A DNA stretch of 64,000 nt from NCBI GenBank assembly GCA_016872775.1, contig VGZA01000005.1, positions 1-64,000 on the forward strand. The letters run 5' to 3'. This document shows, in pieces, positions 1,575 to 14,021 of the stretch. Under the pieces are notes generated by a model. The model was not told the origin of the DNA, searched no databases, and saw only the letters and a list, made by a program, of their open reading frames with translations. This DNA is from Planctomycetota bacterium. Its GTDB lineage: Bacteria > Planctomycetota > Planctomycetia > Pirellulales > Pirellulaceae. The position numbers and the translations under genes were made by a program. Positions within the stretch are counted from its first letter, which is position 1. Each line of letters opens with the position of its first letter.

Positions 1575-4105
1575 CTCCTCGAAAATTTTCCGCGCCGCCA
1601 GCGCCTGTTTGGACCGCTGCTCTACGAGTTGTCTTGACAGCGATCGCAACGCTCGCTGCCTGCGACTTGACCGGAACCGGATTCGCCGCCGCGCCGAATG
1701 ACGGCTTGCGCATTCTCCCCGGCGATTTTGCGCTCGCGCATCCCGAAGCCCGGCAGCGAATCGTTGTCGAGCAATTACGAGGAGAACAGTATGCCGGCGA
1801 GATCCGTGAAGGTTGCCAGATCCAGAGCAGCGATGAACGGGTCGTCAAGGTTGAATCCCGCGTGGCGATTCCCGTGGGCAATGGAACGGCCACGATTGTC
1901 GCGCGCGAAGGACAGCGGCAAGCCTCGGTTACAGTTACCGTCTCCGGGCAGGAGAACGAACATTTTTGGAGTTTTCGCAATCATGTCGAATCGGTTCTTT
2001 CGAAATGTGGCTGCAACAGCGGCGCATGCCATGGAGCCCGGGCGGGCAAAAACGGGTTTCGATTGACCTTGTTTGGATTCGATCTGGACGCCGATTACTC
2101 GTACCTCACGCGGCAAGCGATCGGGCGCCGGATCGTTCCTGATGACCCCGGCCGAAGCCTGCTGCTGACCAAACCGACCGGCACCATCCCGCACAAGGGC
2201 GGAATCCGCTTCGAACCCGATTCGCTCGAGTACCGTGTCTTGGCGGAATGGATCGCCTCCGGCGCGCCAGGACCACGCCCGGATGACCGCGTGATCGAAC
2301 GGCTTGAGGTTTTTCCCAAATACTCACAACAGCAACCCGGCGGGCGGCAGCAGTTGCTCGTTCAAGCCCATTTCAGCGATGGCTACGTCGAGGACGTGAC
2401 GCGCTGGGTGAAGTACACCACCGTCAACAGTTCCGTGGCTTCGGTCAGCGATGCGGGAGAAGTTCAGATCACCGGCTCGGGCGAAGGGGGCGTCAAAGTC
2501 TGGTACTTGAACTTGAGCGAGCTGGCCTTTCTCAGCGTGCCTTACCCGGGGACGGTGCCCTCGGAGACCTATTCGCGGGCCGACCGCAGTACGTTTCTTG
2601 ATGAACATGTGGTGCGAAAACTGCAGAGTCTGAACCTGCCGCCCGCGGCCCGCGCGGACGACGCGACATTCCTACGCCGAGCGTTCCTGGATACGGCCGG
2701 AATCCTGCCGACCGTTGAGGAAACGGTGCGCTTTCTGAACGATAACGATCCGGATAAGCGCGAACGGCTCGTCGAGTCGCTGTTGGCGCGGCCGGAGTTC
2801 GTCGACTACTGGACCTACCGCTGGTCCGATCTGTTGCTGATCACCGGCGACCGACTCCGTCCCAAGGCGGTCGAGACTTATTATCAGTGGTTGCGGGCAA
2901 AAGTCGCGGCCAACACTCCCTGGGACCAGTTGGTGCGGGAAATTATCACCGCCAACGGCAGCACCCATGAATACGGCCCCGCGAACTTCTTCGCGCTGCA
3001 TCAGGATCCGGAGACGATGGCGGAGACCACCGCACAGGCCTTCCTGGGACTCTCGATCAATTGTGCCCGCTGTCACAACCATCCTTTAGAAAAATGGACC
3101 AACGATCAGTATTACGGATTCGCCAATCTCTTCTCGCGCGTACGCAGCAAAGGCTGGGGCGGCGATTATCGATCTGGCGACGGACTGCGCGTCGTCTTCG
3201 CGGATACGCAAGGTGAACTGCTGCAACCGAGCAAGGGCAAACCCCAATCCCCTCGACCGCTCGACGGTCAGCCGATTCCGTTCGAACGCACCTCGGATCG
3301 CCGGATCGAACTCGCGGATTGGTTGACATCGCCCTCCAACCCGTATTTTGCTCGATCGATCGCCAACCGCATCTGGGCGAACTTCTTCGGAGTTGGACTC
3401 GTCGAGAAAGTCGATGACATGCGCGTTACCAACCCCGCAAGCAACGAAGAACTGTTGGCGGCGGCCAGTCGGTACCTGATCGACCATCAATTCGATCTGA
3501 AGGAACTGATGCGCGCGATTCTCAACTCGGCGACCTATCAGCGGTCCAGCGAAGCGCTGCCAGGAAATGCCTCCGACGATCGTTTCTACTCGCGATACTA
3601 CCCTCGCCGACTGAAAGCGGAGATTCTGCTGGACGCGATGAGCGCGGCGACGGGCGTGCCAACCGAATTCAAGAACTCCGAGAACAAACCGTTCAGCGCC
3701 GAAACGCGAGCCTTGCAATTGCCGGATGCCAGTGTCGACTCGTACTTCCTCAAAACCTTCGGACGTCCGGAACGACTGATCACCTGCGACTGCGAACGGA
3801 GCGACGAACCGAGCATGCCGCAGGTGTTGCATCTGTTGAACGGGTCGACGCTGAACAACAAACTCCAGGCGCCGACGGGTCGCATCCCCACATGGCTCGA
3901 GTCCGCGGCCGGTCCGGAATCGATCGTCAAAGATCTCTACCTGGCGGCGTTGTCCCGATATCCAACGCCCGAAGAGGAGACGCGACTGACGAGCGTCCTG
4001 TCCAGCGTCTCGACAGACCCTGCCCATGCCAACGATCGACGACAGTTGCTCGAGGATCTGGTCTGGAGCGTGCTCAGCAGCCGTGAATTCCTGTTCAATC
4101 ATTGA
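1571..4105 (+). CDS. exported DUF1549/DUF1553 protein with Ig-like domains and heme-c-like motifs
   Basis: An 844-residue protein of the planctomycete PSCyt2/PSD1 type. The start at 1571 overlaps the previous stop (ATGA); the open frame runs further upstream, but that part lies inside the DUF1501 gene. A hydrophobic N-terminus ending TGFAAA suggests export. In order it shows a bacterial Ig-like segment (about 60-125), a cysteine motif CGCNSGACHGA, a second Ig-like segment (about 290-340), DUF1549 with the c-heme motif CARCHNHPLEKW, and DUF1553 starting at ELADWLTSPSNPYFARSIANR. The first motif is CX4CH rather than CXXCH. Proteins of this class are thought to act in the periplasm with their DUF1501 partner, possibly on polysaccharide or sulfated substrates, but the function is unproven. 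Confidence 0.88.
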   Translation: MTPRKFSAPPAPVWTAALRVVLTAIATLAACDLTGTGFAAAPNDGLRILPGDFALAHPEARQRIVVEQLRGEQYAGEIREGCQIQSSDERVVKVESRVAIPVGNGTATIVAREGQRQASVTVTVSGQENEHFWSFRNHVESVLSKCGCNSGACHGARAGKNGFRLTLFGFDLDADYSYLTRQAIGRRIVPDDPGRSLLLTKPTGTIPHKGGIRFEPDSLEYRVLAEWIASGAPGPRPDDRVIERLEVFPKYSQQQPGGRQQLLVQAHFSDGYVEDVTRWVKYTTVNSSVASVSDAGEVQITGSGEGGVKVWYLNLSELAFLSVPYPGTVPSETYSRADRSTFLDEHVVRKLQSLNLPPAARADDATFLRRAFLDTAGILPTVEETVRFLNDNDPDKRERLVESLLARPEFVDYWTYRWSDLLLITGDRLRPKAVETYYQWLRAKVAANTPWDQLVREIITANGSTHEYGPANFFALHQDPETMAETTAQAFLGLSINCARCHNHPLEKWTNDQYYGFANLFSRVRSKGWGGDYRSGDGLRVVFADTQGELLQPSKGKPQSPRPLDGQPIPFERTSDRRIELADWLTSPSNPYFARSIANRIWANFFGVGLVEKVDDMRVTNPASNEELLAAASRYLIDHQFDLKELMRAILNSATYQRSSEALPGNASDDRFYSRYYPRRLKAEILLDAMSAATGVPTEFKNSENKPFSAETRALQLPDASVDSYFLKTFGRPERLITCDCERSDEPSMPQVLHLLNGSTLNNKLQAPTGRIPTWLESAAGPESIVKDLYLAALSRYPTPEEETRLTSVLSSVSTDPAHANDRRQLLEDLVWSVLSSREFLFNH

Positions 4106-7034: not shown

Positions 7035-8180
7035 TTATCGACCGGCGAGAAACTCGCCTACGGCGGGGTTCGATTTGCGGCGCCAGATCGCGCCATCGAG
7101 CAGATAGTGCGTCAACTGCGGCACGGCCAGTAACGGGACGAGCCAAACTCGGAGATCAATCTGCCAGGCGGTGCCGAACAGCCATGGTCTTTCGTGCCAG
7201 ACTCCGCGATCCCAAAGATACTCCTCCGCGTATGCCAGGCACCAGACCGCGGCGAGAAACCAGTACCAATGTGAGAAAAGCGAATGACGTTTGCGGGCGA
7301 TCTTGTCGACAGTTGACGCGGATTCGGCTGCTGCGACACACCGATCGCTTTCTCGCTCGTGAACCTGAAATCGGTGCACAAGCACCATATACGGTATGCC
7401 GTGAATCAGCACGTTGGTGACCATGAATGCGTAGTCGGAGTTCAGCGCCACAATCCCCAGAAACCAGCAGACGGCCGTACTGCCGACGACCAGATCCTTT
7501 CCAGGGTTCCAGCGGCGATGTTGCACGCCAAGTTGCAGGCTGCGAAGCAAGTAGGCGGACAGGAAGCAGGCGTAGAGCGGTGCCGTGAGGGTTCCGACCC
7601 ACCCAGGGAGTGCGACGAAGTCATGCGATCGGAACCACCAGAAGGCGCGCGGCAATTGGCTATGCCACCAGAGCAGTGGCCAGATGGTCGCCGAGTAGAT
7701 GGCGAGCGTGTCGATCCAGCGGGTGGTCGATGTTCGATCGCCACTTCGGGATCGATAGATTGCGACCCAGCCCGCCTGTTGCCGCACGAAGTGGAATACA
7801 GCCAGGTAGGCCATGCAGCGCCAGAAGACCGATTCGCTTTCGGAGTAGACACAGGCGGCCAGCAGCCAGGCGAGAGCCGGCGTCGATCCATACAGCCACG
7901 GTCGGCGTCGCAGTTCACCCGGCGCGAAGTAGACGCGAAATCCGGTGGCCCAGACATGCGCCACATCGACAAGCAGGATCGAGCCGATCCAGGTCCATTC
8001 CGGTGAGTCGCTGTCGAGCCAGCCCGCGATCGCGCCGAGCAAGACCAGGGCCAGCGCAAGCGCCGCGCTGCCGCCGAACGCCCCTAGGTCGACGTTTCGG
8101 GAAAACAGCCAGCGACTTGAAACGATCGGGGCGGAACTGCGCGAAAGAGCGGCGACGGGGCTGGCAGGTGCGTTGGTCAC
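7035..8180 (-). CDS. polytopic membrane protein with conserved-looking histidines, last gene of the SpeD operon
   Basis: I do not recognise a named family. The GTG start at 8180 overlaps the TGA of the FAD oxidoreductase gene by four bases (GTGA), giving a 381-residue product. It has about nine hydrophobic segments, interrupted by histidine-bearing motifs: VAHVWATGFRVYF, FHFVRQQAGW, IHGIPYMVLVHRF and TQLTH-like PQLTHYLLDGAIWRR. Histidines placed at membrane boundaries in this way resemble metal or heme sites of membrane desaturases, hydroxylases and carotenoid oxygenases, but I cannot assign it to one of them. Translational coupling to the oxidoreductase suggests the two proteins work together. 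Confidence 0.75.
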   Translation of the reverse strand: MTNAPASPVAALSRSSAPIVSSRWLFSRNVDLGAFGGSAALALALVLLGAIAGWLDSDSPEWTWIGSILLVDVAHVWATGFRVYFAPGELRRRPWLYGSTPALAWLLAACVYSESESVFWRCMAYLAVFHFVRQQAGWVAIYRSRSGDRTSTTRWIDTLAIYSATIWPLLWWHSQLPRAFWWFRSHDFVALPGWVGTLTAPLYACFLSAYLLRSLQLGVQHRRWNPGKDLVVGSTAVCWFLGIVALNSDYAFMVTNVLIHGIPYMVLVHRFQVHERESDRCVAAAESASTVDKIARKRHSLFSHWYWFLAAVWCLAYAEEYLWDRGVWHERPWLFGTAWQIDLRVWLVPLLAVPQLTHYLLDGAIWRRKSNPAVGEFLAGR

Positions 8181-9886
8181 GGGACGCGCTCCCGCTGCTG
8201 GTCGGCAATCTCGCGCGCGGCCCGGCAGCCATGCGCAAACGCCTCCTCGAACAACGCAATCCCGCTCAGATCGGTATGCGCGAACTGAATATTGCCAAAA
8301 CGCTCCTGGCAGCGCGCGCGCGCCGTGCCAAACCGAAATCCGGGAACCGGCCGGATCATCGCATGTCCCCAATGCATGACGTCCAGCCGAACGATCAGCG
8401 GTCGGAGGTCCGAGTGCGCGATTTCCAGGTCGCGAAGCACGACGTCAACGCAGGCATTCCAGTCGCACGATTCCAGCCATTCCCGACCTTCGCTGGGGGT
8501 AAATTCGCACAACGGCCGATAGTAGGTCAGCACGGTCGGACCATGATCGCGTCCCGACTGATGGGTAGCGACGACGTAACCCAATCCTTGTCCGTCGCGG
8601 ATCACATTGTCCCAGGCAACGGGAAACGAATGTTCCACCGGCCGATCGCGGAGATGCAAGTTTGCGACAAGCCAGGGAGCGTACGTGAACTGGCGCACCG
8701 CGTCTCCCCGCTCGCGGTCGTAATTTTCGATGATGCGGCGGGCGATAAACTGCGGTCCGGCGAAAATCGCATGGCGGGCGCGCCACCCCCGGAGAATTCC
8801 GTCGGCGGCGCTGCGCGCGACCACTTCCACACCGTCGAACGGTCCCTCGGGCATCGATCCAGGCTTCAACGATGCCGCTTCGTCGACGCCGCCTCCATTC
8901 CCGCCGCTTGTTGCTGACTTCGCCGGTCGCATCGCGGTGACGAGCATGCCGGTCCTGGCCCGGTTCCCCAACTGATCTGCGAAAAAGCGTACCAGCCGGC
9001 CGTTTCCCTCGGGCCATGTCAAGAGCGGCTGCGGCGATTCGCCGGGATTCCGGATTCGCGATGCGAAGTAGAACAGCCCGGCCCAGGCGCTCGTCTGATC
9101 CAGGGTTGTGCCGTAGTCGTCGCGACAGGCGTATTCGATCTCCCAGCGGACGAACGGGGAGTGGAATCGACGTTGTTCCATCCACTCGGTCATGCTGATC
9201 GCATCCAATGCCGCGACTTTCGGATCGTCCGAGCCTCGATCGCTGGGCAGAACAAAAGCCCGCCGTCCCTGAGGATCGCGCCAAGCCACCCACGCATCGA
9301 CCTCGATACGAAAGCGATCCCACTCACCTCGCTCCCGGTCGCTCACGTCGGAGGGCAACAGGTCCTCATGCCACTGACCGTCGTAAAACAGTCGCTCCTC
9401 CGGATCGCGGCAGAGTTGTTCTTCCGCATAGACCGCCGAGCCGTCCGCGTCGAACTGTTCGATCGCGCCGGCTTCGTGCAGAAGCCGCAGCAGCTCGATG
9501 TTCTCCGGCATGGGGGTCGGCAGGTAGTGTGCGCCCCAGGGGTAGGCGCTGACGTCGGAACGTCCGCCGCGCGAGGTTCCTCCCAGCGCCTCCTCCAACT
9601 CCAGCAGCACGAAGTCACGCAGGCCCAGCTTGTCGAGTGTCCAGGCGCTGGCCAGTCCCGCCACGCCCCCGCCAACAATGACGACGTCGACGGTGTGCCA
9701 CTCCGCAACCGGTTCGTCCAAACGGCGATCGCCGCGCAGTTCGTGGCCGCGGTCGCGCGCGGCGCCGATGATCGCGCCGGGAAACGAGAACGGTCCGACA
9801 CGAGAACCACATCCCGAGCATGCGGCCGTACCGGCAATGGCCGATGCCTTCAACATCCGGCGGCGTGTCCAACGTTCGGAAGACAT
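8177..9886 (-). CDS. exported FAD-dependent amine-oxidase-like oxidoreductase
   Basis: A 569-residue flavoprotein. The start at 9886 is preceded by a purine-rich AGAGAGAGATG sequence and gives a Tat-like leader (TRRRMLKAS) with a possible lipoprotein cysteine at residue 23 (IAGTAAC). The dinucleotide-binding motif VVIVGGGVAGLASAW lies at about 68-82, followed by an ELEEALGGTSRGG segment. This is the layout of the flavin amine oxidase/protoporphyrinogen oxidase superfamily. Its place downstream of SpeD and a spermidine-synthase-like gene makes a polyamine or a polyamine-derived product a reasonable substrate guess, which is inference. The gap to the upstream gene is 69 bases, the longest in this operon. 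Confidence 0.82.
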   Translation of the reverse strand: MSSERWTRRRMLKASAIAGTAACSGCGSRVGPFSFPGAIIGAARDRGHELRGDRRLDEPVAEWHTVDVVIVGGGVAGLASAWTLDKLGLRDFVLLELEEALGGTSRGGRSDVSAYPWGAHYLPTPMPENIELLRLLHEAGAIEQFDADGSAVYAEEQLCRDPEERLFYDGQWHEDLLPSDVSDRERGEWDRFRIEVDAWVAWRDPQGRRAFVLPSDRGSDDPKVAALDAISMTEWMEQRRFHSPFVRWEIEYACRDDYGTTLDQTSAWAGLFYFASRIRNPGESPQPLLTWPEGNGRLVRFFADQLGNRARTGMLVTAMRPAKSATSGGNGGGVDEAASLKPGSMPEGPFDGVEVVARSAADGILRGWRARHAIFAGPQFIARRIIENYDRERGDAVRQFTYAPWLVANLHLRDRPVEHSFPVAWDNVIRDGQGLGYVVATHQSGRDHGPTVLTYYRPLCEFTPSEGREWLESCDWNACVDVVLRDLEIAHSDLRPLIVRLDVMHWGHAMIRPVPGFRFGTARARCQERFGNIQFAHTDLSGIALFEEAFAHGCRAAREIADQQRERVP

Positions 9887-9955
9887 TACATCTCTCTCTG
9901 CCTGGACTTTGCGCAGCCCCGGTGGCGGCGGGCTCTGCACGAGCGAACCGACGCT

Positions 9956-11551
9956 TTACTTCCAGCGAGCCCACTCCGACTCGTAGTACCGCACCAGGAT
10001 CTGGTTGTTCCAGCGATTCGGTTCGACCTCGAGTCTTCGCATGTCGAGTGGAAGTTCAAAAAGCCCTTGCAGTCCGGAGTTGTCCAGAAATTTCAACTGC
10101 GACGCAACCCGTTCGTCGAGCCGCCAGTTCGATACCGTACCCAAATCCCGGCGTGCGGCCAGCACGAAACCCCATTCGCCGAACGACGGAACACTGGCGC
10201 GGTAGGGCCAGGTATGCAAACCGGCGTTCTCCAGCGTCTTTACGACGCACCAGAACGATCGCGGTGCGCTCAACGGGGATGTGCACTGAACCGCCACCAC
10301 TCCATCCGGAGCAAGGCAACGTAACAGCCGTCGATAGAAGGTCGTGGTATACAACTTGCCGACGGCGAAACTGCTCGGATCGGGGAAGTCAATGATCACC
10401 AGATCGTATTTGCGGTCGACCTGTTCCAGCCAGATCAGCGCATCTTCATGAATCACGCGCAACCGTCGGTCGCCGAACGCGTCGGCATTGAGCGTTCGCA
10501 ACAGCGGCAATCCGCTGCCCAGTTCGGTCATCGCGGGATCGATGTCGACCAGTGTAGCCGACTCGACATCAGGATAGCGAAAGATCTCGCGCAGCGCCAA
10601 TCCGTCTCCACCGCCCAGCACGAGCACATGCCGGCGATCGATCGCCGCGCTGAATGCCGGATGCACCAGTGCCTCGTGATAACGGTACTCGTCGGCCGAA
10701 TGAAACTGCAGATTGCCGTTCAGAAAGAGATGAAAATCGGACTCGCTGCGCGTGACGACAATCCGCTGGTACTGCGACGTTCGCGCGAATACCACGGGAT
10801 TGCCGAACTGCTGTTCCTCGGCGAGGTCGGTGAACAGGTCGGCCTTGATGATCCCGGCGACAAGTAAGCCGATGACCAGAAACGCCCGTCCCTGCAATCC
10901 TCCAACCCGCCGCGGCAGCAGGGGACGCAGCAGGTGGGTACCCCACAAAGCGACAAGCGCATTGAGCAGTCCCACGACGAACGACGTGCGCACGAGCCCC
11001 AGCTGCGGCACGAGGAACAACGGGAATAGCAACGATGCGGCCAGCGCGCCGATATAGTCGAATGCCAGGACGCGCGAGACCAGATCGCGAAAATCGAGGT
11101 GTTCTTTGAGGATCCGCATCAGCAGAGGCAATTCCAATCCCACCAGCGTGCCGATCAAGGTGACCACCGAAAACAGCGCGAAGTGGAAACCGCGCAGATA
11201 TCCGAACGCCAGGAACAGGACGGGTGCCGAGCAACCTCCGACCAGAGCGACCGCCAATTCCACTTCGACAAATACGCGCGCCGGCGATCCGACGATGAAT
11301 CCGGAGAGCCACGCGCCAATACCGAGCGCGAACAGATAGAATCCGATCACCAGCGAAAACTGCGTGACCGAGTCGCCCAGAACATAACTCGCCAGCGTGC
11401 CCGCCAACAGCTCGTAGACCAGTCCGCAGGACGCGATGATCAGCACGTTGATATACAGCAGAAAAAGCGGCGCACGGTCGAGCCTCAATGGCTCACCCTT
11501 GCCCCACCCCGCTTGTTCCAGGGCTGGTTGCACTGGCTGAACGATGGCCAT
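9956..11551 (-). CDS. membrane-embedded spermidine/spermine synthase-like aminopropyltransferase
   Basis: A 531-residue protein with two halves. Residues 28-235 hold about seven transmembrane helices. Residues 255-531 form a spermidine synthase-like domain with the substrate motif DEYRYHE (287-293), the AdoMet-type glycine loop GGGDG (313-317), VDIDP (335-339) and the catalytic region IIDFPDP (386-392) followed by LYTTTFYR. These active-site motifs look intact. The soluble spermidine synthases lack the helices; membrane-linked versions are known next to DUF350 and AdoMet decarboxylase genes. The likely reaction is aminopropyl transfer from decarboxylated AdoMet, made by SpeD of this operon, to an amine acceptor at the membrane. 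The acceptor is unknown. Confidence 0.88.
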
Positions 11552-11560
11552 CTCCCCGCC

Positions 11561-11854
11561 TTATCCTTGGATCGCGGCGGCGATGATGATCGAAATGCCA
11601 ATCAACAGCGCCCCGACAATGATCCCCATCGCCGTGTTCTGGTCTTCGAGGATCTCTTTTCGGAAGGAATAGGGTGAAAATTTGTCGATCACCCAGATGC
11701 AGACCATCAACACCAGAACACCGATCCCTGAGAATACCACCGCCGCGATGATATGCTTCAACAGCGAAACGATCCCCATCAAATCGCCATCTCCGTCCAC
11801 GGCGGCCAATGCGACCATCGCCGACGATAGCGCTTGCTGCACTACGGATCCCAT
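11561..11854 (-). CDS. DUF350 small membrane protein
   Basis: The start at 11854 is preceded by a strong GGAGGAGG ribosome binding site and gives a 97-residue protein. An upstream in-frame ATG at 11887 would lie inside the preceding small gene and is less likely. Two to three hydrophobic segments are visible: a long one containing LLKHIIAAVVFSGIGVLVLM and a C-terminal one (MGIIVGALLIGISIIIAAAI) after an acidic loop with EILEDQNTA. This is the DUF350 pattern (YjfL type). DUF350 proteins have no proven biochemical role but are repeatedly found with spermidine-synthase-like, AdoMet decarboxylase and DUF4178 genes, all present here. The gap to the neighbour on each side is under 10 bases. Confidence 0.85.
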   Translation of the reverse strand: MGSVVQQALSSAMVALAAVDGDGDLMGIVSLLKHIIAAVVFSGIGVLVLMVCIWVIDKFSPYSFRKEILEDQNTAMGIIVGALLIGISIIIAAAIQG

Positions 11855-11855
11855 A

Positions 11856-12029
11856 TTACTTGCCTCCTCCCCAACCCCAGATTCCACTTGAACCCCTCAC
11901 GCCACTGCTGCCGGTACTGCTTTGCGATGATCCCGACGAACCGGTCGAGAATCGCCAGCCACGAGCCAGCGCCGTGCTCAGTCCCAACGCCAGGACCAAT
12001 CCATAGGTCACAAACAATTTCTTGACCAT
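11856..12029 (-). CDS. 57-residue Gly/Ser-rich exported peptide
   Basis: A very short gene between DUF4178 and DUF350. The ATG at 12029 gives a clear signal peptide (MVKKLFVTYGLVLALGLSTA, cleavage probably after ALA). The mature part is about 35 residues, rich in glycine and serine (GSSGSS, TGSSG, RGSSG) and ending IWGWGGGK with three tryptophans. The ribosome binding site GGAG lies within the last codons of DUF4178, and the stop is one base from the DUF350 start, so it is embedded in the translation chain of the operon and is unlikely to be chance. I recognise no family. It may be a secreted substrate, a structural peptide or a small partner of the membrane enzymes. Confidence 0.7.
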   Translation of the reverse strand: MVKKLFVTYGLVLALGLSTALARGWRFSTGSSGSSQSSTGSSGVRGSSGIWGWGGGK

Positions 12030-12037
12030 CACCTTGA

Positions 12038-13606
12038 TTACTCCGCGAATTCGCTGTCGGCCCAACGACTCTGCTCGAACGAACGGGCATGCAGCCAGAG
12101 CGCGCCGGGGAAAAACGAGAGGCAGGCGATCGCGATCACCGTCCACTCGTGTCCGACCGGATGTTTGACAATCAGGCTGATCACCAGGTCAATTGCGATG
12201 AAGATCGCGAGCCACGCCAGCCACAAGAGATACACGGGCCCGTAGGTCGGAGCCGGCTGGTTGGGCGCGACGCCGAAACCTCGCGGTAACCGACCAAGCT
12301 TGAACGCCGCCTCGACCTGTTCGTGCGCCAGATAGGTCCCCAGGGAAGCGATCCGCTCGACAAAGCGAGTCTTTTGCCAGTCATCGGAACCCGAATAGCT
12401 CACTTGTGCCTCAGCTTCCGGCGTATACTCCAGCGTGATCATGCGTGGTGGAGCGATAAAGTCCTCGGCGAGCACCGTCTCGCCCAGCGAGACCTTCCAG
12501 TAGAACTCGCCCAGCACATAGACCACGCGGGCCCAGGCGCGTTGGAAAATGCGGAACCGGGTCCCTTTCCATTTCAGAATGTTCCCCGGCGTAATTTCAT
12601 CGGTGGGAATCGGTTCGACGAAACTCCAATGGCGATCGCTGTGCACCAGCCAGCGGAAGCCGGTGGCCGCCTCGTACAAGAGGAACTCGTCCCAGGTGTA
12701 TTGCTTGTCGAAGTAGACAGATCGTCGCACGAATCCGATCACGACATATTTGACGCCGGACAGCACTCCTTCCGAGCCGATGGGAATGATCGGTTTGATT
12801 TCGGACGAGAGCGTCTTCAGGAACTTCAGGTTGCCTTGTTCGATGTCGAGCAGCGAGGAACAGTAGGGGCAGGTAACCCGTTGTGCGGCGTCAGGTGCCC
12901 TCAGTTCGAGTGCGCCGCCGCACTGCGGGCAGCTTACGCCCGTTCCCGAAATGGCGACCGATTCCCGATCGCGGTCCTCCGCGTCGTCGATACCCAGTTC
13001 CGACAGGGATACCTCGCGTCCGCGGTACAGCGTGACCTCATCACCTTCGTAGACCAGCGTACCGAATCGGTTGTCGGGTCCGGAGAGATCCGCGAATCGG
13101 TGTTCGCAACCTGGGCGTGCGTCGAACGGAATTTCGCCTTCCGCGGCGAGCAGCGCCGCGGTGTTGAACTCGTTGACCGTGAACATGAGGTGATCGCGGA
13201 GTTGCACGGGAGCGCCTACGGAAAGTTCGCTCCAGGTCGGAATCCGCATGTGACTGTTAATTTTCCGTTCTTGGGTCAGGAATCGTTTGCCCTGGGCTTC
13301 CGCAATCCAGCACCATCGGTCGCCTGGAAATGCCGCGTACCACTCGTCCCAGATCCCGCCCGCCGGATGCCGATACTGTACGTGACCGACAATCTCGAAC
13401 GGATGATCGCGATATCGTCCCGTCTTCCCCAATCGCAGCACCGAATCGGTGGCCACGATCGCGGCCACGCGACCATGGTCTTCCAGCTTGCGATCTCCTC
13501 GCGCGACCACGGAACTGCAGGAAGGACAGATCGTGACCAGCGAGGCGCTGACACGGAATTCGACGGGGCTGCCGCAGGATGGGCAGGGCGCTTCAATCGA
13601 TTTCAT
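12038..13606 (-). CDS. DUF4178 protein with two zinc ribbons and C-terminal membrane helices
   Basis: A 522-residue protein starting at 13606, 14 bases inside the end of speD, which indicates coupling. Two CxxC pairs form a first zinc ribbon (C8, C11, C27, C30) and another four cysteines form a second (C225, C228, C245, C248). Each ribbon is followed by a DUF4178-like beta-rich module (for example YTWDEFLLYEAATGFRWLV near residue 300). The C-terminus has two transmembrane helices (YLLWLAWLAIFIAIDLVISL and VIAIACLSFFPGALWL). DUF4178 has no established activity and is known mainly from its association with DUF350 and polyamine genes. The duplicated ribbon-DUF4178 arrangement with a membrane anchor suggests a scaffold or sensor at the cytoplasmic membrane face. 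Confidence 0.85.
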   Translation of the reverse strand: MKSIEAPCPSCGSPVEFRVSASLVTICPSCSSVVARGDRKLEDHGRVAAIVATDSVLRLGKTGRYRDHPFEIVGHVQYRHPAGGIWDEWYAAFPGDRWCWIAEAQGKRFLTQERKINSHMRIPTWSELSVGAPVQLRDHLMFTVNEFNTAALLAAEGEIPFDARPGCEHRFADLSGPDNRFGTLVYEGDEVTLYRGREVSLSELGIDDAEDRDRESVAISGTGVSCPQCGGALELRAPDAAQRVTCPYCSSLLDIEQGNLKFLKTLSSEIKPIIPIGSEGVLSGVKYVVIGFVRRSVYFDKQYTWDEFLLYEAATGFRWLVHSDRHWSFVEPIPTDEITPGNILKWKGTRFRIFQRAWARVVYVLGEFYWKVSLGETVLAEDFIAPPRMITLEYTPEAEAQVSYSGSDDWQKTRFVERIASLGTYLAHEQVEAAFKLGRLPRGFGVAPNQPAPTYGPVYLLWLAWLAIFIAIDLVISLIVKHPVGHEWTVIAIACLSFFPGALWLHARSFEQSRWADSEFAE

Positions 13607-14021
13607 TCCGCATGCTCCCCGGCGGCAAGGACCACAAGTCGTCGTCGCCCACAGCCGCCCCGGTTGCGGATTCGAGCAGCAAACCGCGAGGGACGCGGCG
13701 AACGCGCACCTGCTTCGCACCGAGGCTTTCGGCCAATTCCGCCGACCATTGCCAGCGCGGTCGCGGCCGGCAGCAATAGAGATTGAACGTCGCGAGACGT
13801 AGTTCCGGGAATGTATGGCAAGTCAGATGCGATTCGGTCAGCAGATACAGTCCAGTGACACCGCCCGGAAACGGGAATTGGTGCCACTGCGGCTCGCCGA
13901 CAATCTGAAGGGCGAGCTCTTCGACAATTTTCTTACAGACGGCGCGCACCGACCGCATCTCCGCTAGCAGTTCCGCGCAGCAACCCTCCGCATCGACGAT
14001 CAATTCCTCACCCGCGTACAT
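13593..14021 (-). CDS. speD: S-adenosylmethionine decarboxylase proenzyme (prokaryotic type)
   Basis: A 142-residue protein of the short bacterial/archaeal AdoMet decarboxylase class. The self-cleavage and pyruvoyl motif TESHLTCHTFPE is present, with Glu63-Ser64 as the predicted processing site, His69 as processing residue and Cys84 as likely proton donor; this is one residue offset from the well-studied Thermotoga enzyme (S63, H68, C83). It should make decarboxylated AdoMet, the aminopropyl donor, for the spermidine-synthase-like enzyme at 9956-11551. It is the first gene of the operon. No Shine-Dalgarno sequence is visible, and a candidate promoter ends six bases before the ATG, so the transcript may be leaderless. 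Confidence 0.92.
   Translation of the reverse strand: MYAGEELIVDAEGCCAELLAEMRSVRAVCKKIVEELALQIVGEPQWHQFPFPGGVTGLYLLTESHLTCHTFPELRLATFNLYCCRPRPRWQWSAELAESLGAKQVRVRRVPRGLLLESATGAAVGDDDLWSLPPGSMRNEID

Follow-up and report, generated by a model that had tools for sequence, protein, structure and literature searches.

The first 64,000 nucleotides of contig VGZA01000005.1 (GenBank assembly GCA_016872775.1, forward strand), from a Planctomycetota bacterium of the family Pirellulaceae, were analysed as one stretch, here called the window. They carry an operon of seven minus-strand genes, encoding an S-adenosylmethionine (AdoMet) decarboxylase-like protein (SpeD), a DUF4178 protein, a small membrane peptide, a DUF350 protein, a membrane protein with a spermidine-synthase-type domain (mSpeE), a flavin amine-oxidase-type protein (FADox) and a further membrane protein (memH). 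The operon probably builds a polyamine onto the membrane-anchored peptide, and the lysine at the end of the peptide tail would be the acceptor of mSpeE. Lysine is the simplest candidate because a C-terminal lysine is kept across several kinds of carrier protein and is tied to one transferase.

A C-terminal lysine on several kinds of carrier

The GGK ends were first spotted by eye, and a choice of open reading frames that was independent of the end was made afterwards. The peptide frame between DUF4178 and DUF350 was picked by hydropathy and coding score, with the C-terminal end left unused. The first set consisted of the 78 loci, out of 105, that have mSpeE, DUF4178 and DUF350 on one strand; the other 27 lacked one of these in the fetched piece and were excluded. 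Within the 78 loci 75 free peptides were called, and the merging of two repeats left 73 distinct sequences. All 73 end in lysine, 64 as -GK and nine as -HK, at lengths of 46–120 amino acids. The peptides are highly variable in sequence except at this C-terminal end, and the tail itself is a short stretch with many Gly, Ser, Tyr, Arg and His residues. As a background, 31 of 327 flanking genes end in a lysine codon, and only four of the 327 in -GK or -HK. The -HK type is clustered on the mSpeE tree, with 5 changes versus 10.6 in shuffles.

The remaining three of the 78 loci (L037, L137 and L138) leave little room for a peptide, and in these the DUF4178 protein ends in a hydrophobic segment followed by ...SFSFGGK or ...SSGGGHK. 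Loss of the tail was therefore rejected for these loci, as it is fused to DUF4178 there. As a side observation, DUF4178 proteins that have a free-standing tail peptide beside them (L152, L153, L156, L161 and L162) often terminate in several consecutive Asp residues, and those fused to the tail terminate in the lysine tail. In ten genomes mSpeE stands apart from the set and DUF4178 lies elsewhere; the tail was found beside DUF4178 in seven of them, so its absence from genomes with a solitary mSpeE was likewise rejected, and the other three were unreadable. In L053, L066, L112 and L118 the orphan label refers only to a gene missing from the fetched piece, and the tail is present.

Later set 1 comprised 18 further planctomycete mSpeE loci, of which L209, L212 and L226 are cut by contig ends. 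A lysine end was found in all 15 readable loci, as the top-ranked call in ten and the second-ranked call in L216, L222 and L225; L221 carries it as an extension of DUF4178 (...GGGFSSGK), and in L218 it was spotted on inspection on a zinc-ribbon protein encoded behind mSpeE (...SGFGGK). Later set 2 comprised 32 Pseudomonadota mSpeE loci. A lysine-ended tail was found in 29 of these; DUF4178 or DUF350 lies within the stretch in 28 of the 32, and none of those 28 lacks the tail. The tail is carried by the DUF4178 protein in several loci, and some tails precede mSpeE rather than DUF350 and keep the lysine. Tails rich in Ser and Arg had been hidden in the Pseudomonadota by the coding-score filter and were picked up by inspection. 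In L304, L305, L307 and L308 a longer carrier precedes DUF350 and ends in ...RRGK, ...RSGK, ...RFGGK and ...RFGGK respectively; by eye, the carriers of L304, L307 and L308 have a lipoprotein-like start. The kinds of carrier seen, whether or not they are related to one another, are the free peptide, the DUF4178 C-terminus, the longer lipoprotein and the zinc-ribbon protein.

DUF350 also occurs in the ATP-grasp peptide-spermidine ligase system, which offers a contrast. Thirty Pseudomonadota DUF1190 genes (the best 30 of 42 matches) end in -GG in 26 cases and in lysine in none, with the end of L252 (-YV) possibly misread; a YgiC/YjfC homologue adjoins the DUF1190 gene in 26 of the 30. The E. coli proteins YgiB and YjfM, which end in ...SMGG and ...HWGG, are the partners of YgiC and YjfC, both named peptide--spermidine ligases in RefSeq and reportedly the subject of Pederick et al. 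(2023), and YjfC is linked to the DUF350 protein YjfL. No YgiC/YjfC homologue was found in the 154 loci of the present set, 144 of which have mSpeE; ten loci in the ligase search have FADox without mSpeE (among 122 loci). The last residue thus tracks the type of enzyme, lysine with mSpeE and -GG with the ATP-grasp ligase, although DUF350 is found with both, and the enzyme rather than DUF350 is therefore implicated. The two systems are alike in their link to DUF350, in a partner with a Gly-rich tail and, if the proposal made here is right, in a polyamine joined to a peptide. They differ in that the ATP-grasp enzyme is an amide ligase that would act on a C-terminal glycine, whereas an aminopropyl group would here be transferred to a C-terminal lysine. 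The window's operon lacks both marks of the ligase system: it has no adjoining ATP-grasp ligase, and its peptide ends in GGGK rather than -GG.

The operon, its enzymes and their conservation

The original prediction described seven tightly packed genes with intact catalytic residues, and it held in each of these respects. All seven are present (Table 1), with overlaps of 14 and 4 nucleotides and gaps of 1, 8, 9 and 69 nucleotides. Residues Ser64, His69 and Cys84 of SpeD are invariant across 10 aligned sequences, the window's among them. The aminopropyltransferase motifs of mSpeE are intact, and seven hydrophobic segments lie N-terminal to its catalytic domain, where about seven helices had been proposed. 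Pfam domains were named in five of the seven proteins: AdoMet_dc, DUF4178 (E-value 2.3e-29), DUF350 (1.2e-13), Spermine_synth (6.4e-33) and Amino_oxidase. The peptide and memH matched no Pfam family.

Table 1. Genes of the operon, with positions in the window
Gene	Coordinates	Strand	Product	Pfam and conservation
SpeD	13593..14021	-	142 aa; class 1b S-adenosylmethionine decarboxylase-like; motif YCCRPR around catalytic Cys84	AdoMet_dc
DUF4178 protein	12038..13606	-	522 aa; CxxC zinc-ribbon-like stretches; hydrophobic C-terminal part	DUF4178 in two stretches
Lysine-tailed membrane peptide	11856..12029	-	57 aa from ATG at 12029; N-terminal hydrophobic segment; Gly/Ser-rich tail; C-terminus ...WGWGGGK	
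DUF350 (YjfL-like) small membrane protein	11561..11854	-	97 aa from ATG	Pfam match; position conserved among relatives
mSpeE	9956..11551	-	531 aa; about 7 membrane helices and a spermidine-synthase-type aminopropyltransferase domain, residues about 242-527	
FADox	8177..9886	-	569 aa; flavin amine-oxidase-type; twin-arginine and lipobox-like N-terminus (RRRMLK...CSGC)	
memH	7035..8180	-	381 aa, GTG start; membrane protein; conserved His/Asp/Glu	Optional member

Judged by its family and residues, SpeD is probably an AdoMet decarboxylase that makes decarboxylated AdoMet. It matches Pfam AdoMet_dc (PF02675) with 84.5 bits against a cut-off of 25 (E-value 7.8e-24), is the sole PF02675 match in the genome, and its profile matches the solved structure 1tlu (2.4e-18). 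Its score against the NCBIfam equivalog TIGR03330 is below the cut-off (68.8 versus 75.65 bits). Around the catalytic Cys, YCCRPR stands where the T. maritima enzyme has FTCG; the YCCR motif is common to most of the 10 aligned sequences, and YCCRPR may mark a separate SpeD sub-family.

The mSpeE protein matches NCBIfam NF002956 (polyamine aminopropyltransferase) with 639.4 bits against a cut-off of 472. Its GGGDG and DxPDP residues, whose roles we take to be the known ones, are invariant in 39 sequences. The AlphaFold model has a predicted local distance difference test score (pLDDT) of 89.7, and its membrane helices are compatible with seven crossings if residues 154–207, modelled as one helix, are counted as two. 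The catalytic domain matches the T. thermophilus aminopropyltransferase 1uir with Z 36.0, a root-mean-square deviation of 2.2 and 30% identity across 279 residues, and 3anx practically as well (Z 35.8). The genome holds four Spermine_synth matches, three of them in long open reading frames. Besides mSpeE, three long frames of 747–873 amino acids with a spermidine-synthase domain (L003, L004 and L005, on contigs C20, C8 and C64) are perhaps other membrane fusions.

FADox matches Pfam Amino_oxidase (PF01593) with 32.1 bits against a cut-off of 19.8 (E-value 1e-7). Its profile reached 1.1e-12 at best against the PDB, where the best 60 of 166 matches are mainly flavin amine oxidases and the alignments cover chiefly the FAD-binding region. 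L-amino acid oxidase, monoamine oxidase, protoporphyrinogen oxidase, spermidine dehydrogenase, polyamine oxidase and LSD1 are among the matches listed. A rough pattern search picked out a twin-arginine motif in 67 of the 78 homologues. In memH, residues D72, H75, H130, H260, E319, E320, H358 and D362 are invariant in a 27-row alignment, and the model (pLDDT 87.2) consists mostly of helices. No NCBIfam family matched memH over its cut-off, a scan of viral contigs gave no match, and a fold search gave a best Foldseek E-value of 0.23 and a best VIA Z of 7.3, to sensory rhodopsin over 169 residues; the latter is not telling, because helical bundles reach such scores by arrangement alone.

The gene set was looked for in 392 planctomycete genomes and, with an alignment of mSpeE sequences, in species genomes at large. 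Of the 392, 25 have FADox (E <= 1e-20) and 33 have mSpeE (E <= 1e-80), and 24 of the 25 FADox genomes also have mSpeE (Fisher p 7e-30, kinship ignored). This genomic association persists even where the two genes are far apart; in 10 of 24 fetched planctomycete loci FADox occurs without mSpeE. In one planctomycete family (L041, L042, L043, L044, L048 and L055) FADox is found at a distance from the operon, next to small secreted proteins in some loci as judged by eye, and mSpeE is on another contig in five of these six genomes. Where planctomycete loci are long enough, the order SpeD, DUF4178, (peptide), DUF350, mSpeE, FADox (and memH) is kept, at about 30–60% identity depending on the gene, in other planctomycete families.

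The wider scan gave at least 587 mSpeE loci. The best 80, many of them in cut pieces, span Planctomycetota, Acidobacteriota, Myxococcota, Gemmatimonadota, Pseudomonadota, Bacteroidota, Verrucomicrobiota, Nitrospirota and Nitrospinota. Partners in these 80 loci, in mostly the same order, are DUF350 (69), DUF4178 (66), FADox (64; 55 with a long domain match), SpeD (55) and memH (23). Corallococcus and Geothrix are examples of cultured hosts that have the operon. Since it recurs in other families and phyla, the gene set is more than a chance grouping. The conserved gene order that the original prediction had named as its check was therefore found, both in distant planctomycetes and in other phyla. 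It placed the last two genes and the tiny peptide outside the usual description; of these, memH is optional, FADox and the peptide are not local extras, and no feature of the set is kept more steadily than the lysine-ended tail.

Competing explanations

In one alternative the lysine at the end would act in sorting or docking, its charge being recognised perhaps by DUF350 or DUF4178, and mSpeE would have a different acceptor, for instance an amine of a lipid, lipopolysaccharide or peptidoglycan. Docking tails can have the length and composition seen here, and DUF350 and DUF4178 accompany the tail in the 78 loci counted. The change of the last residue with the type of enzyme, while DUF350 is shared by the two systems, argues against it, and we regard it as an unlikely though serious alternative.

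A second alternative, closest to the original prediction, would have the operon produce spermidine or an analogue in free form at the membrane, with the peptide as no more than a small structural subunit. Spermidine is classically made by this pairing of SpeD with an aminopropyltransferase domain, both have intact residues here, and the NCBIfam name of mSpeE is that of a polyamine aminopropyltransferase. Li and co-workers, in 2019, are said to have found that fusions of this kind gave no spermidine and no complementation, and so do not replace spermidine synthase. Elsewhere in the genome there are one match to PF01916 (the deoxyhypusine/homospermidine synthase family) and three to the decarboxylase family PF02784, so that a housekeeping polyamine route independent of the operon is likely. 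Because of these separate matches and the reported result of 2019, a free polyamine is the less likely product, and it would leave unexplained why carriers of several kinds almost always end in lysine; we consider this explanation quite improbable. What is supported of the original prediction is a membrane-linked, polyamine-type chemistry with an exported flavoprotein that resembles amine oxidases, and the gene order kept in distant relatives.

It is very doubtful that SpeD has neofunctionalised into an ornithine or arginine decarboxylase, with putrescine or agmatine as the product of the set. Its score below the NCBIfam AdoMet decarboxylase cut-off and its unusual YCCR motif would fit such a change, and changes of this type are reported for the family in PMC10407285. 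The proline of HTxPE, which may be the diagnostic proline of that paper, is kept, however. In addition, SpeD adjoins an aminopropyltransferase, which needs decarboxylated AdoMet, and the genome already has PF02784 matches.

Finally, the GGK end might be no more than a Shine-Dalgarno sequence for the following gene, translated in frame: 48 of the 75 copies carry a GAGG-like site within their last codons ahead of DUF350 (GGAGGAGGCAAGTAATATG in the window's copy). The 27 copies without such a site still end in Gly-Lys or His-Lys, which rules out a pure artefact as the full explanation. The -GRVK and -GRIK ends of some Pseudomonadota and the tails that precede mSpeE rather than DUF350 keep the lysine as well. 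This account is hardly credible, even if a Shine-Dalgarno site may contribute to GG being favoured ahead of the lysine.

Several points weigh against the lysine being the acceptor of mSpeE, or limit its support. The terminal lysine could serve charge or recognition and stay unmodified. The count of 73 of 73 carries no correction for kinship among the loci. Five Pseudomonadota loci end in -GRVK or -GRIK, with Val or Ile before the lysine, and only the C-terminal lysine is therefore general, usually after Gly or His. No tail was seen in L277, L287 and L306, Pseudomonadota loci of which none has DUF4178 or DUF350 in the stretch. Later set 2 was not blind, because 13 of its 29 tails came from a search aimed at -GK or -HK ends, and the same search also gave two short, chance-like frames, in L298 and L308. 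The tail was a second-ranked candidate in L300 and L302, as in the three loci of later set 1, and was seen by inspection only in L304, L305, L307 and L308, as in L218. Neither FADox (E <= 1e-20) nor mSpeE (E <= 1e-80) was found in eight genomes of the same family or three of the same order; since these, the nearest relatives searched, do without it, the operon is not essential. The topology of mSpeE raises a further difficulty. Mean Lys plus Arg is about 2.1 in loops 2, 4 and 6 and 0.0–0.6 in loops 1, 3 and 5, with helix borders set by hand, and this charge pattern predicts an inside N-terminus and an outside catalytic domain. If the domain is outside, decarboxylated AdoMet would have to be exported, and we know of no carrier for it; if it is inside, the tail would have to be modified before export.

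Proposed chemistry and its relation to known systems

From the observed gene content, linkage, tail and motif conservation we infer a transfer, its site, its side of the membrane and a later oxidation. SpeD would supply decarboxylated AdoMet, from which mSpeE would move one or more 3-aminopropyl groups onto the side-chain amine of the C-terminal lysine. The lysine side chain is chemically akin to putrescine or cadaverine, and GGK with an aminopropyl group would be the alpha-carboxylated counterpart of a Gly-Gly-spermidine amide. The amine oxidase, exported by the twin-arginine (Tat) route, could then oxidise the resulting amine at the outer face, either trimming it or producing a reactive aldehyde for cross-linking, a step suggested by the family, signal and co-occurrence of FADox. 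DUF350 and DUF4178 may hold or present the tail, DUF4178 being sometimes itself the carrier. A more specific version, which is possible and put forward only tentatively, places the chemistry at the outer face: mSpeE would be a transporter-transferase fusion that also carries decarboxylated AdoMet across the membrane and aminopropylates the tail lysine, perhaps repeatedly, the Tat-exported amine oxidase would then trim or activate the product, and the -GGK and ATP-grasp -GG systems would have reached nearly the same membrane-tethered polyamine tail independently.

Gene clusters with an AdoMet decarboxylase, a membrane spermidine-synthase fusion and DUF350 were reportedly described by Li and co-workers in 2019, who are said to have proposed a substrate other than putrescine and to have noted thousands of AdoMet decarboxylase homologues whose product bypasses spermidine. 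Those clusters resemble the present set in SpeD, the membrane fusion and DUF350; they differ in that the acceptor was reportedly left open and no lysine-tailed peptide is known to be described there, whereas a candidate acceptor is named here. A further difference is the amine oxidase, which the present analysis shows to accompany the set. Polyamine-type groups on protein lysines are found in hypusine and silaffins, and an aminopropylated microcin C was reportedly described by Kulikovsky and co-workers in 2025. Such cases provide examples of peptides or protein lysines that bear aminopropyl or polyamine groups, although they involve other enzymes and other targets and are not known to be membrane-linked. 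In the literature searched DUF4178 was named in a single paper, and no such tail was described in the titles and abstract openings of the papers listed on membrane aminopropyltransferases with peptide or lysine substrates, aminopropyl-lysine and aminopropylation.

The operon group with PspA and CesT/Tir described by Ravi et al. (PMC11237479) contains a 7TM-spermidine synthase, DUF350, a lipoprotein (Ctha_1186) and DUF4178, and the same paper cites Li et al. 2019 for the aminopropylation of other substrates. This group shares the mSpeE, DUF350 and DUF4178 types with the window's set, which differs in having SpeD, a flavin amine oxidase and the 57-aa peptide; a C-terminal lysine is not mentioned in the passages of PMC11237479 consulted. 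By eye, L304, L307 and L308 resemble the group, and -GK is the ending of the longer carrier that precedes DUF350 in each of them. A Pfam scan of the operon's seven proteins gave no PspA or CesT/Tir match. Near mSpeE, a PspA-family gene was seen at L225:11026-11742 (minus strand; Pfam) and in L307 at about 3155-3859 (by eye). Because a few relatives adjoin PspA-family genes, a role in envelope stability or stress is likely.

The lysine tail offers a concrete candidate substrate for mSpeE and would answer the question about its acceptor that the work of 2019 is said to have left. If the tail lysine is indeed aminopropylated, a hypusine-like lysine modification would be added to bacterial envelopes, and two DUF350 systems would be united by membrane peptides with polyamine ends.

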